Assembly (NCBI GenBank): GCA_902547755.1
Contig: CACCPA010000001.1
Location: forward strand, 248,001-312,000
Direction of reading: 5' to 3'
Length of the DNA stretch: 64,000 bases
Origin: Halieaceae bacterium
Lineage (GTDB): Bacteria > Pseudomonadota > Gammaproteobacteria > Pseudomonadales > Halieaceae
Below the pieces are notes generated by a model that was given only the letters and a program-made list of their open reading frames with translations, had not been told where the DNA came from and made no database searches. Positions 8,516 through 15,049 of the stretch are shown here, in pieces (position 1 is the stretch's first letter; every line of letters starts with the position of its first letter). Position numbers and translations under genes: made by a program.

Positions 8516-9265
8516 ATGACTCAACCATTAGCGCTTTGGACGGCCCCTACGCCCAACGGCTGGAAGGTCAGCATCATGATCGAGGAGCTCCGGGAGCTGG
8601 GAATTGCGCTTCCGTCGGTTGAAGTCATAACGGTCGATATTATGAGTGGCGAGCAATTCAGCGACGTTTTCAGCGCCGTGTCAGCCAACCAAAAAATACC
8701 GGGTTTGGTGCATGGTGACATAAGACTCATGGAGAGCTGCGCGATCCTTCAGTACCTCGGGGAGGAGTTCCCCTCTAGCCTGTATCCAAGCGGTGCCGAC
8801 CGCTACTACGTTCTGCAATGGCTGACTTGGCAAGCTGCGGGTTTGGGACCCTCATTCGGTAATAAACTGAGCTACACCCGCTACATGGCCGACGTGCCGG
8901 AGGAGCAAAAGGTTCATCCGCTCACCCGTTTCAATGCGGAGTCTCAGCGCCTTCTCAGAGTGCTCGACAAGCAACTCGAGGGAAAGCGTTTTGTTTGTGG
9001 CGAGGACTTCACCATTGCCGACATCGCCATCTTCCCCTGGATCCGTGGGTACAAGTGGAGCAAGATCGACATTACTTTGCATCCCAACGTACTTGCCTGG
9101 AAGGAACGCGTTCGTCACAGGCCCGGCGTTAAGCGCGGTCTCGCCTACGGCGCGAAGTTGGGGGAGGAAGAGCAGTGGAGTGAGGAGACGAAGCGCAAGT
9201 ATGCGTCGGGAGGTTCGTTTATGGCATCGAATCAGACGATAGCAGAGAGTCATTCAGAGGAATAA
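8516..9265 (+). CDS. Glutathione S-transferase (Nu-class, YfcG/YghU-like)
   Basis: A 249-residue cytosolic GST. The N-terminal thioredoxin-fold domain has TAPTPNGWKVSI, with the T-x-N motif that binds glutathione or its disulfide in Nu-class enzymes, and MESCAILQYL at the glutamate-serine gamma-glutamyl site. The C-terminal helical domain has FTIADIAIFPW, the standard N-capping box. Nu-class members act as disulfide-bond reductases. The gene is followed after 5 bp by the glycosyltransferase at 9271, so they are probably co-transcribed. Confidence 0.88.
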   Translation: MTQPLALWTAPTPNGWKVSIMIEELRELGIALPSVEVITVDIMSGEQFSDVFSAVSANQKIPGLVHGDIRLMESCAILQYLGEEFPSSLYPSGADRYYVLQWLTWQAAGLGPSFGNKLSYTRYMADVPEEQKVHPLTRFNAESQRLLRVLDKQLEGKRFVCGEDFTIADIAIFPWIRGYKWSKIDITLHPNVLAWKERVRHRPGVKRGLAYGAKLGEEEQWSEETKRKYASGGSFMASNQTIAESHSEE

Positions 9266-9270
9266 AAGAG

Positions 9271-10254
9271 TTGAAGCTTGCTAAAACGATTGGATCCTCG
9301 CAAAAAATCTTCGTTTCGATTGCTTGTTTTTGCGATCCCGATGTTGTGGATACGGTAAAGGATTGTCTCGATAAAGCGGGCCGTCCTGGTCGCGTCGAGA
9401 TAGGGGTTTGCCTTCAGGCCAAGCCAAACGATGCGTCTTACGACGCGCTGAACGAGATTGTGCGAGTAACGGTAGATCGTATCGATGTCACCGAAGCGCG
9501 GGGACCTATCTATGCACGAGCGCGGTGCGACGCACTGATGACCGACGCTGATTACTTCTTGCAAATCGATTGTCATTCACGTTTTTTTGCCCGCTGGGAT
9601 GAAATTTTGATTCAAGAGTTCACCAAAGCCTCGGAGCTCAATGACAAAGCTGTCGTGTCGCACTATCCAATGAATATAAAAAATATGGCGTCATCCGATC
9701 ATCTTGATCGCATCGGCCACGTGAATCGTTATCGATATATCGAAGCGGATGCGGTTAAGAGTCACGGCTCATTGATCAAGTTGCCAGAGGTGCCGGTTAC
9801 GTCGCTCGGTATAAGCGCTGCGATGCTGTTTATGCGGGCAGAAGATCGCAGGCGTTTTCCCTACGACCCGGAACTTGATTTCGGCTTACATGCTGCAGAG
9901 CAAGTGTTGTACGCCGTGCGCCTCTGGACTCATGGCTTTGACATCTTTTGTCCTACACAGCACGCGCTCGCAACAGACTACGAGGGATCGCGTGATCGAA
10001 TTCCCGATGAGGTCAAACGTGTCAGCAATGCAAATCGAGCAGGCTGGCCTGAAGCCACGTGGTCGAAGGTGAAATACTTGCTGGGTCTAGACGACATCGA
10101 GCAGGTCGATCCCGTCTACGCCGATTCTCTCGACGACAGTCTGGAGCGCTTTGGTGTCGGCGATGAGCGATCGCTGCGAGCTTACTATGAGTTTGCAGGG
10201 ATACATGACGATATAAAGCGCGTCTTCCCAAACTATCGTTACGCTGAAGATTAA
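9271..10254 (+). CDS. GlcNAc-type glycosyltransferase (PF11397/GT60-like)
   Basis: A 327-residue protein resembling the family of polypeptide GlcNAc-transferases that includes Dictyostelium Gnt1, which glycosylates hydroxyproline on Skp1. Visible features are the start KIFVSIACFCD, GPIYARARCDAL, the metal/nucleotide site QIDCHSRF with a DxH triplet (Asp100, His102), and the late motif E210...RLWTHGFDIFCPT (residues 210-228). Start is a TTG at 9271, 5 bp after the GST stop. It ends 4 bp inside the convergent prolyl-hydroxylase-like gene, which makes a hydroxylate-then-glycosylate pair plausible. No signal peptide, so cytoplasmic. Acceptor unknown. Confidence 0.75.
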   Translation: MKLAKTIGSSQKIFVSIACFCDPDVVDTVKDCLDKAGRPGRVEIGVCLQAKPNDASYDALNEIVRVTVDRIDVTEARGPIYARARCDALMTDADYFLQIDCHSRFFARWDEILIQEFTKASELNDKAVVSHYPMNIKNMASSDHLDRIGHVNRYRYIEADAVKSHGSLIKLPEVPVTSLGISAAMLFMRAEDRRRFPYDPELDFGLHAAEQVLYAVRLWTHGFDIFCPTQHALATDYEGSRDRIPDEVKRVSNANRAGWPEATWSKVKYLLGLDDIEQVDPVYADSLDDSLERFGVGDERSLRAYYEFAGIHDDIKRVFPNYRYAED

Positions 10255-11270
10255 CTGGGTATCAAACTGTTGAGCGTCAAGCCCGCGACGTTTCGCTGTA
10301 CTTTGAAGCGATATCGCTCGCTGCCTTTTTTTTCGCTGGCCTCGGCCTCACCAAAAAAGAAACTGATGATGACGTAGCGATTCCCTGATCCGATTTCATT
10401 GACCTGATGAAAAAGCGATCCCGGAAAAATGACAGCGCCGTACTTGGGCACGCTCAGAACCTGTGAGTTGTATTCCGGGAACGCAATGCCACCGCCTTCA
10501 TAATCATCATTCAAAACCAGGGTCATCGCGTACCGGCGATGAAGGTGAGGAAAGATGGTGTCGCGATGCTTCCCAAACTTGCCGCTATTCTCCCCTACGT
10601 ATTTGCAGATTTTATAGGTCTCGCGATGGGTGATTTCAGAATAAAAAACCTTTTCTATCTCGGGTAAGACGGACTTGCTCAATTTGTCGTCGAGACGTTT
10701 TTCCAAAGCGGCCGATGGGTGGATATGGAGCCGTCGTTTGAAGTCTTTGTCTGCAACAAATCCCTCCTCCTGGTGCGCGTCGATATACTCGATAAGATCT
10801 TCTGCTAGCGCCTCATCGATCGCATTGTTGATCACTAGCACTGGGGCGGGTGATTCAGTACTAGGTAAAGTAAAGCCCGCTAGCTCCTCCTGCAGTTCCT
10901 CAAGGGTTTGCGCGTCAACGAAGTCAACAATCTTCAAATTACTGTCGGTGACGAACGCACTGATGGGCGCAAGCTCGTGCTGGAAGAGATGACAAAACTC
11001 GGCAGAGTGGAACCAGCGGCCATGCTCAATGTCGATTGACGACGGGGTGAACACAAAGTGTCTAAAATGTAGGCGCAACTGTAACGCTCGTGCGGTTAGC
11101 TCTAGATGACTGTCCTTGAGAAACAACAGGATATTGGGCTCGCCCGCTTTCCCTTGAACATCAAAAACTCGCTCGCATGTGTTTATGTAGGCATAGGGAA
11201 CGTAGTCGCCAGTCGACATTCGGGTGCTATAATCGATTGTGGGGTCTTGAGAGGGTGTTATGAGTTTCAT
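10251..11270 (-). CDS. 2-oxoglutarate/Fe(II) dioxygenase, prolyl-4-hydroxylase-like, with N-terminal redoxin-like domain
   Basis: A 339-residue protein. The C-terminal half is a P4H-type double-stranded beta-helix: iron ligands His235, Asp237 (HRD) and His288 (FHQV), and Arg298 for the 2-oxoglutarate carboxylate; GGGIAFPEY and FPGSLFHQV are classic P4H words. Residues 20-130 look like a degenerate thioredoxin/peroxiredoxin fold without a clear CxxC. Cytoplasmic. It probably hydroxylates a protein side chain, likely proline. Tail-to-tail with the GT60-like gene (4 bp overlap), which suggests a shared target, though convergent genes need separate promoters. Confidence 0.8.
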   Translation of the reverse strand: MKLITPSQDPTIDYSTRMSTGDYVPYAYINTCERVFDVQGKAGEPNILLFLKDSHLELTARALQLRLHFRHFVFTPSSIDIEHGRWFHSAEFCHLFQHELAPISAFVTDSNLKIVDFVDAQTLEELQEELAGFTLPSTESPAPVLVINNAIDEALAEDLIEYIDAHQEEGFVADKDFKRRLHIHPSAALEKRLDDKLSKSVLPEIEKVFYSEITHRETYKICKYVGENSGKFGKHRDTIFPHLHRRYAMTLVLNDDYEGGGIAFPEYNSQVLSVPKYGAVIFPGSLFHQVNEIGSGNRYVIISFFFGEAEASEKKGSERYRFKVQRNVAGLTLNSLIPS

Positions 11271-13814: not shown

Positions 13815-13928
13815 ATGGAAAGTATCAATATGTGGACGCTAATTAGTGTCGGATTGTTATGTATCCCCATCATTTACAAACGCATCGGAGAAAAGAAGAC
13901 CGAGCGTTTCGAGGATAGGGACCATTAA
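13815..13928 (+). CDS. Small single-TM protein (37 or 32 residues)
   Basis: A short frame immediately after the ybjQ-like gene. It encodes a hydrophobic segment (WTLISVGLLCIPIIY) followed by a charged tail rich in K, E, R and D. Two starts are possible, ATG 13815 or ATG 13830; GGAAAG at 13817-13822 favours the second. The topology suggests a small inner-membrane peptide. It ends 4 bp inside the convergent glycosyltransferase gene. Confidence 0.45.
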   Translation: MESINMWTLISVGLLCIPIIYKRIGEKKTERFEDRDH

Positions 13929-15049
13929 TCCGTTGAGGACGGCACGCTCACGTTCATGAACGCCAGGTAGTGCTTGGCTGCTACCTCTGCCTTAAACGGT
14001 GCTACGGCCTCGTCGAGCAATGACGACGCAATGCCGCTGTTCAGCACATTTATACAGGCCGCTGCGAGTGCTTCTGCATCACCAACGGGCACTAAGGGAG
14101 CAATTCGTCCACCGTCGAGCATTTCACTGGGTCCTGAAGGGCAGTCGGTCGACACTACGGGTGTGCCTACAGCCATGGCCTCGGTCAGCACGTTGCCGGA
14201 TCCTTCGGCGAAGGATGACAGGACGAAGAGGCTCGATTTCGCCATCCAAGCCCAAGGTGTATCGACAAACCCAGGTAGCTGCACGCGATCTGCCAGGTCT
14301 GTCTCTGTGATAATTTTCTCCAATCTCGCTCGCTCCGGTCCTTCTCCGAGAATCAAAAGCCGAGAGGGTACTGTGTCATTAATGAACCGGAAGGCCTCTA
14401 ATAGCGTTTGGTGGTCCTTGTTCTTTGTTAGCCTGCCCACGGTAATGAGAACTGGCTCATCGAAGTCCTCACCTAGCCATGGATGATCAACGGACGTTTG
14501 CGCCTCTCGAATCATTTCTGCCGTGGTGACGGGGTTTTTGATCGCTATGACGCGATCAGCGGGCATACCGGTCGTGTTAAGTAGATCCTCTCGAACACCC
14601 TCTGACACCGCGATGATGCCGTTTAGTTTGGGGTACTCATTGCGCATTAACCAGCCCCAATGCCAACGTTGGAAGCGACTACGATGCGCGAGTGATTGTG
14701 TCACGTTGATACCAATAACGCCTGTAATCGGGGTATTGGTTCTCGCTTTTTTACGTGCTCTGAGAGCTGCCAGCATGGCCCGGTGTTTCGCGACAAGCAG
14801 TGCTTGTGGCGCCTCTTTTTTGAGGTAATCGGCGACCTCACTGACGCACGTGGCTGCGTGCTGGCGTTTGAGGGGAATTTGGTTAACCGCAGGCGATAGG
14901 GCAGCTAAGTGAGGACTTTTACGTTTGATCAGCAACAGATCCACGTCGACTCCCAAGGCTGCGATTTCGTTGACCAACAGCGCAAAACTTCGCTCAACCC
15001 CTCCTTGGCCTGAGAAAGATACGAGTACTGCGATTTTGTTGTTTGCCAT
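13925..15049 (-). CDS. Glycosyltransferase family 4 (GT-B)
   Basis: A 374-residue GT-B retaining glycosyltransferase. It has SGQGGVERSFALL at the N terminus, a second domain beginning VLITVGRLTKNKDHQTLLEAF, LLILGEGPER, and the EX7E nucleotide-sugar motif FAEGSGNVLTEAMAVGTPVV. Its neighbours make heptose precursors and ligate LPS, so it probably adds a sugar to the LPS core or another surface glycan at the cytoplasmic face of the inner membrane. It follows the DUF1330 gene by 5 bp in one operon. Confidence 0.88.
   Translation of the reverse strand: MANNKIAVLVSFSGQGGVERSFALLVNEIAALGVDVDLLLIKRKSPHLAALSPAVNQIPLKRQHAATCVSEVADYLKKEAPQALLVAKHRAMLAALRARKKARTNTPITGVIGINVTQSLAHRSRFQRWHWGWLMRNEYPKLNGIIAVSEGVREDLLNTTGMPADRVIAIKNPVTTAEMIREAQTSVDHPWLGEDFDEPVLITVGRLTKNKDHQTLLEAFRFINDTVPSRLLILGEGPERARLEKIITETDLADRVQLPGFVDTPWAWMAKSSLFVLSSFAEGSGNVLTEAMAVGTPVVSTDCPSGPSEMLDGGRIAPLVPVGDAEALAAACINVLNSGIASSLLDEAVAPFKAEVAAKHYLAFMNVSVPSSTD

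Follow-up and report, generated by a model that had tools for sequence, protein, structure and literature searches.

Two genes that face each other in a 64,000-nucleotide stretch of a Halieaceae genome (GCA_902547755.1, contig CACCPA010000001.1, positions 248,001 to 312,000; hereafter the window) raise the question of whether a bacterium hydroxylates a protein and then glycosylates it. One gene encodes a glycosyltransferase of the GT60 type and the other a 2-oxoglutarate (2OG)/Fe(II) dioxygenase. Glycosylation on hydroxyproline is familiar chiefly in eukaryotes, and PMC6939170 describes the GT60 enzyme Gnt1 as adding N-acetylglucosamine (GlcNAc) to the Skp1 hydroxyproline made by PhyA. The window pair was read, with about an even chance of this being right, as a bacterial two-step module with the predicted functions of hydroxylation and then glycosylation of a protein, and is classed here as a bacterial form of such a hydroxylate-then-glycosylate system.

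The glycosyltransferase matched PF11397, which was used as a proxy for CAZy GT60, with 156.9 bits against a Pfam gathering cut-off of 21. The family that the initial annotation had proposed from motifs was thereby confirmed and no unrelated family emerged; the two motifs were present as QIDCHSRF at residues 98-105 and RLWTHGFDIFCPT at residues 217-229. Residues D100, H102, W109, D110 and R217 were invariant in 15 diverse GT60 proteins and in 62 sequences, and the DxH is taken to bind the metal, as the DxH motif of GT27, the polypeptide N-acetylgalactosamine (GalNAc) transferases, does. An AlphaFold2 model was obtained with a mean predicted local distance difference test (pLDDT) score of 80.5 and a predicted template modelling score of 0.84. 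Foldseek ranked GT27 enzymes first (best E 9.5e-12), and in VIA-align they took ranks 1-29 among the best 50 matches with Z 20.2-22.2, the next match having 17.4. The modelled fold resembles protein N-acetylhexosamine (HexNAc) transferases, from which the sugar and the acceptor are predicted only. Although GT27 has this fold in common with the window enzyme, it was not retrieved by phmmer from the single window sequence, and by profile at E 0.079 only; with 327 residues, the window protein is too short to include the lectin domain that most GT27 enzymes carry.

The dioxygenase matched no Pfam 2OG family up to E 1 and gave a sub-cut-off match to NCBIfam PRK05467 (E 6e-10). The HRD...H...R motif read in it earlier was upheld, as the HRD starts at residue 235 and H235, D237, H288 and R298 were invariant in an alignment of 19 sequences. 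When the alignment of 19 dioxygenase relatives was searched as a profile (A5) against solved chains, its catalytic part matched LH3 (E 1.8e-10), mimivirus L230 (1.9e-10), PiuC (9.7e-10) and a Bacillus prolyl 4-hydroxylase (P4H; 9.4e-6). The structural model had a whole-chain pLDDT of 61, with a better catalytic domain, and residues 141-309 gave Z 15.5-16.9 to PKHD, PPHD, PHD2, lysyl hydroxylase and others, the scores of lysyl and prolyl hydroxylases differing by 1 to 1.5 at most. As modelled, the enzyme is a member of the prolyl/lysyl hydroxylase fold family with HxD...H...R and a predicted hydroxylase activity. The earlier label "prolyl-hydroxylase-like" was therefore right in fold family and motif and too narrow otherwise, because the profile lies nearer to LH3, L230 and PiuC than to P4Hs; for the same reason proline is not fixed as the target residue. 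The dioxygenase family was scattered in the phylum, with some match in 30 of 299 genomes, many of them weak. Two tandem copies of a redoxin-2OG dioxygenase were seen in one genome of the phylum (L188, 6215-8337).

The redoxin-like N-terminus of the dioxygenase was real at profile level, since A5 matched peroxiredoxin/ResA-type chains at about profile positions 8-150 (best E 2.4e-10). The role of redox sensor suggested for it in the initial annotation, like that of an active peroxiredoxin, was rejected because no cysteine is conserved across the family. In the alignment, read by eye, no cysteine stood at the peroxidatic position; Cys32 was unique to the window sequence, and Cys93 was present in 3 of 4 same-genus sequences but absent from all 15 others.

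The two genes were then followed through 37 same-genus genomes, the window's own included. The glycosyltransferase was present in nine of them (G000, which is the window's own, G005, G007, G013, G016, G017, G019, G030 and G035), and a full-length orthologue of the dioxygenase was present in the same nine. Neither gene occurred without the other in any of the 37 when full-length dioxygenase orthologues were counted, while G010, G018, G023 and G029 gave weaker or partial dioxygenase matches only. The neighbourhood was conserved, as the pair stood together and convergent in 9/9 carriers with orthologue protein identities down to 69%; the glycosyltransferase was found in 0/21 same-order genomes. 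Both genes are intact and look selected, because between the window and G017 dN was well below dS for the glycosyltransferase (0.047 and 0.336) and for the dioxygenase (0.045 and 0.275). The together-or-absent pattern is what co-inheritance in one subclade would give, and both genes were probably passed down together, as one unit, in such a subclade.

The genes flanking the pair were syntenic, and the next gene, an alpha/beta hydrolase, had orthologues of 71-78% in the pair-less genomes G018, G015, G006 and G008 (23 of the 37 same-genus genomes covered). In the sister species G018 (L173, 188-10292), the slot between the glutathione S-transferase (GST)-like gene and the alpha/beta hydrolase held no GT60 pair; it contained two proteins resembling oxygenases, one AMP-binding/carrier protein, one Cupin_8/JmjC protein and one protein with a weak match to O-FucT. 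Because this pair-less relative carries other genes there, the slot seems to be variable and the pair resembles a cassette within it. At the end of its contig C69 (L012), G016 has a further, partial copy of GT60 with 84% identity, which is either a strain variant or a paralogue.

Linkage of GT60 to an oxygenase recurred outside the genus. PF11397 was uncommon, with matches in 4/369 genomes of the class, 28/398 of the phylum and 5/385 of the class of G430, another proteobacterium (counts include G000 or G430). Outside the genus it was found in 34 distinct genomes, 30 of which were searched with PF13640, the four others being read only or fragments. Kordiimonas sediminis (L037 and G730/L098, the same contig) encodes a fusion of P4H, GT60 and a tubulin-tyrosine-ligase-like (TTL) ATP-grasp domain in 875 amino acids, with matches to PF13640 (E 2.5e-14), PF11397 (1.6e-65) and the TTL-like model (3e-13). 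Its P4H part matched the solved P4H 2jig at E 9.9e-31 and human P4HA2 at 1.5e-26, and it was in this fusion only that a canonical P4H was met. The second fusion, in G430, has 595 amino acids and carries a C-terminal 2OG domain behind GT60. This domain scored 24.6 bits (E 4.9e-5) against PF13640, 26.9 in a second search and 29.2 when searched with neighbours (gathering cut-off 27); HKD...H...R was read in its sequence, and alone it retrieved no 2OG chain in a PDB sequence search.

Separate adjacent genes were found in uncultured viral contigs, which are likely phages. When the contigs were scanned with the dioxygenase family, 80 loci were retrieved, and in 6 of these GT60 lies directly beside a 2OG gene. 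Those 2OG genes, used as queries in turn, retrieved an overlapping set of 53 loci, 7 with adjacent GT60. The seven contigs represent five distinct pairs, since three of the contigs carry identical pairs. The two genes of each pair share a strand, with a spacing of -53 to +2 bp and in two gene orders, and the most different pairs had about 30% (glycosyltransferase) and 35% (2OG) identity. Pfam confirmed both partners in 3/3 tested loci (L318, L336 and L360). Homologues of the glycosyltransferase thus do stand beside or within hydroxylase genes elsewhere, namely in the two fusions and the seven viral contigs. The two-enzyme system of the initial annotation gained support for its pairing in this way and lost its redox-sensing part. 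The GT60-2OG linkage is repeated, but it is found at a minority of GT60 loci.

Candidate substrates were visible beside one of the fusions. The G430 gene lies 154 bp downstream, on the same strand, of two adjacent and similar RTX-protein genes (576 and 561 amino acids), and its neighbours matched RTX and collagen models. The nearer RTX protein has 12 PTPEPT units at residues 170-253, and the other has 35 Gly-X-Y triplets, 17 of them GPT and 12 GET. Both are presumably secreted candidate substrates, unlike a cytoplasmic factor; hydroxyproline-linked and threonine-linked sugar are both possible in the repeats because proline and threonine are both dense. Wider associations of this kind were rejected. 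PF01391 was found in 3/9 pair-bearers and 6/28 of the other same-genus genomes, which is no association of a collagen-like target with the pair; one such match of G000 (L368), when read, proved to be a long protein whose acidic Gly-X-Y run spans 17 triplets, and its contig is not that of the pair. RTX neighbours as a rule of GT60 loci were not convincing (4/41 bacterial, plasmid and phage loci, in G217, G430, Phyllobacterium and G1111, against 1/16 in the control). Gly-X-Y proteins were not enriched near GT60, with 3/80 viral loci, 1/30 bacterial loci (G430) and 0/8 loci of the genus against 2/80 viral 2OG loci.

In the proposed mechanism, the dioxygenase would hydroxylate a side chain of the protein, most likely of proline, with lysine as the main alternative. 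The GT60 enzyme would transfer HexNAc from UDP-HexNAc to the hydroxylated side chain, or to serine/threonine, of the same protein. Both steps would take place in the cytosol, possibly before export. We infer that hydroxylation comes first, that both enzymes act on one residue and that this residue is proline; the identity of the sugar, the place in the cell and the kind of target (a repeat protein, secreted or at the surface) are likewise inferred.

Several results weigh against this mechanism. Co-occurrence of the pair is confined to one genus and probably to one subclade, and the two genes, being convergent, are not one transcript. A PF13640 match at the glycosyltransferase gene was obtained in only 2/30 PF11397-positive genomes outside the genus. 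A local search with 48 seeds placed a 2OG gene near GT60 in only 2/80 viral loci (L270, without the full motif, and L229), only 2/30 bacterial loci (L097 and L098, both fusions) and 0/6 phage and plasmid loci. Among the best 25 of 123 matched families, no glycosyltransferase family was shared by two or more of 79 neighbours of distant dioxygenase relatives. No repeat-rich or RTX open reading frame (ORF) passed the filters in the window. The C-terminal stretch YHxY...HWDDH, usual in other GT60 proteins, is missing from the window enzyme and replaced by ATDYEGSRDRIPDE in its genus, so that the donor or acceptor may differ; the stretch is common in bacterial members without being an established defining feature, and Kordiimonas deviates too (YQCW). 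The nearness of the dioxygenase to lysyl hydroxylases and PiuC rather than to P4H also counts here. Finally, GT60 includes a mucin-type (Ser/Thr) enzyme of T. cruzi, according to PMC6939170 and PMC8724618, and hydroxylation therefore need not precede GT60 action.

The neighbour counts are to be read with their sampling. Pfam scans covered 66/113 bacterial, plasmid and phage neighbours of GT60, 74/151 viral ones and 79/81 neighbours of dioxygenase relatives, and many of those outside the scans were look-alikes of kept loci. The matched families numbered 72, 37 and 123, and each result covers the best 25 of them; isolated matches to a 2OG or glycosyltransferase family could therefore go unseen. 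The neighbour sets came from a mechanical choice of ORFs, which missed the RTX gene of L097; this gene was taken up separately.

The alternative that survives best, although unlikely, is that the two genes are unrelated neighbours. GT60 would then add sugar to Ser/Thr residues of a surface protein, and the dioxygenase would act on a siderophore, a small molecule or another protein. The convergent layout, the many GT60 loci examined that lack a 2OG gene (most of them) and the lack, among the best 25 matched families, of a shared glycosyltransferase family near distant dioxygenase relatives would all fit this alternative, as would viral GT60 genes, which can follow genes for Gly-Thr-X/Gly-Ser-X repeat proteins whose repeats are nearly free of proline. 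Co-occurrence in 9/9 carriers at the level of divergence given above argues against chance neighbours, however, and so do the separate fusions and the adjacent viral pairs. A little less probable still is collagen-type chemistry, in which the dioxygenase would be a lysyl hydroxylase and GT60 would glycosylate hydroxylysine, like LH3/ColGalT or mimivirus L230. LH3 and L230 are indeed the best solved relatives of the catalytic part, ahead of the Bacillus P4H, but the structural scores hardly separate lysyl from prolyl hydroxylases, the clearest linked dioxygenase elsewhere is the canonical P4H of Kordiimonas, and we know of no GT60 enzyme that acts on hydroxylysine. Proline was favoured over lysine as the most likely hydroxylated residue. 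Skp1-like signalling, in which a cytoplasmic regulator or a translation factor (EF-Tu, for example) would be hydroxylated and given GlcNAc so as to gauge oxygen, would follow the analogy with PhyA/Gnt1 and with PPHD, which hydroxylates EF-Tu (PMC7864055 and PMC6939170), and neither window protein has an obvious signal peptide by eye, but it is very improbable given that no linked cytoplasmic target gene was seen in the loci read, that the visible candidate targets were RTX repeat proteins and viral structural-type proteins, and that the occurrence is patchy (4/369 genomes of the class).

The proposed two-step module can be compared with several known systems. The Skp1 pathway of Dictyostelium, Toxoplasma and Pythium, with P4H and GT60 fused in many protists, has the family PF11397 in common with the window and likewise couples a 2OG hydroxylase-family enzyme to GT60, a fusion now also seen in bacteria. 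It differs in that the window genes are separate and convergent and that the dioxygenase they include is of a distinct subfamily, one that carries a redoxin-like domain at the N-terminus; to our knowledge, Skp1 is absent from bacteria. LH3/ColGalT and mimivirus L230 include the closest solved relatives of the catalytic part by profile and follow the same two-step logic, and their glycosyltransferases are not known to belong to GT60. PPHD is of the same fold family as the window dioxygenase (4j25, Z 16.5) and of a different sequence subfamily, and we know of no glycosyltransferase partner for it. Protist hydroxylase-GT60 fusions are already described, and PMC8724618 cites, by its title, a paper on a dual-function P4H/GlcNAc-transferase from a plant pathogen. 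According to the review PMC8968730, most bacteria cannot produce hydroxyproline, and the B. anthracis P4H acts on synthetic peptides. In the open-licence literature searched, we came upon no account of P4H paired with GT60 in a bacterium or phage.

The coordinates of the pair and of the gene upstream of it are given in Table 1. Both ORFs lay where the initial annotation had placed them, each ends in a TAA stop, and the overlap of 4 bp between their 3' ends was verified. The glycosyltransferase starts 5 bp past the stop of the GST-like gene, and the two may be co-transcribed. The family of the GST-like gene (fam12) was present in 7/13 loci compared, and the gene is at most a candidate associate of the pair. 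About 2.7 kb beyond the pair, a GT4-type glycosyltransferase was found at 13925-15049 on the minus strand, with PglJ as the best, far sub-cut-off NCBIfam match.

Table 1. Features of the gene pair and its upstream neighbour (positions within the window)
Feature	Position	Strand	Basis
PF11397/GT60-type glycosyltransferase, 327 amino acids, TTG start	9271..10254	+	ORF, Pfam and AlphaFold2 model
DxH motif (D100, H102) of the glycosyltransferase	9568..9576	+	Invariant in 15 diverse GT60 and in 62 sequences
2-oxoglutarate/Fe(II) dioxygenase, 339 amino acids, converging on the glycosyltransferase	10251..11270	-	ORF, overlap and relatives
Degenerate redoxin-like N-terminal domain of the dioxygenase, about residues 17-135	10866..11222	-	Profile matches to peroxiredoxin/ResA
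2OG dioxygenase catalytic domain, residues 141-309	10344..10850	-	Alignment and structural matches
GST-like gene directly upstream of the glycosyltransferase	8516..9265	+	ORF; sub-cut-off NCBIfam disulfide-bond oxidoreductase matches

Further observations were made on GT60 enzymes at large. Relatives were common in uncultured viral contigs, being encoded in at least 586 among the best 600 matched stretches. A tree of 138 glycosyltransferase domains, which was not used, placed the window genus in one clade (support 1.0) with the viral GT60 of L270 as sister (support 0.41). The glycosyltransferase was fused behind an extra domain, which the window enzyme does not have, in 5/11 loci read (L030, L032, L103, L104 and L106), and in 3/3 tested loci Pfam identified this N-terminal domain as an FkbM methyltransferase. 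FkbM was N-terminal in the window genus (L103, L104 and L106) and C-terminal in G1131; another type of methyltransferase was fused to GT60 in L076 and L087, and L273 was also among the methyltransferase-fused proteins. Such fusions suggest that the sugar may be methylated. Carbamoyltransferases were seen near phage or viral GT60 genes in L112 (annotation) and in L318 and L327 (protein read), and their models were matched by 2/66 bacterial, plasmid and phage neighbours and 3/74 viral ones. GT60 stood beside a fimbrial-type gene within type VI secretion clusters on Burkholderia/Paraburkholderia plasmids (L116 and L278). On the Thioalkalivibrio plasmid pTK9001 (L281, 3722-5590), the C-terminal part of a P4H-like protein matched the Kordiimonas TTL-like domain with no GT60 between, an arrangement which suggests that GT60 was inserted in the Kordiimonas protein.

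A wider claim, possible although doubtful, would be that bacteria and phages own a hydroxyprolyl/hydroxylysyl O-HexNAc system of 2OG and GT60 enzymes, sometimes in one polypeptide. In at least one proteobacterium (G430) it would decorate RTX proteins whose PTPEPT repeats resemble extensin and whose GPTGET repeats resemble collagen, as a bacterial counterpart of hydroxyproline-rich glycoproteins; the window pair would represent the system as two separate genes, and this prokaryotic or phage pool may be where the protist Skp1 pathway came from. If this is true, a linked hydroxylase and protein HexNAc-transferase in bacteria and phages would be a prokaryotic form, and a possible source, of the Skp1 oxygen-sensing pathway. 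The single-polypeptide enzymes, one of them beside repeat-rich candidate substrates, make the proposal testable in E. coli.

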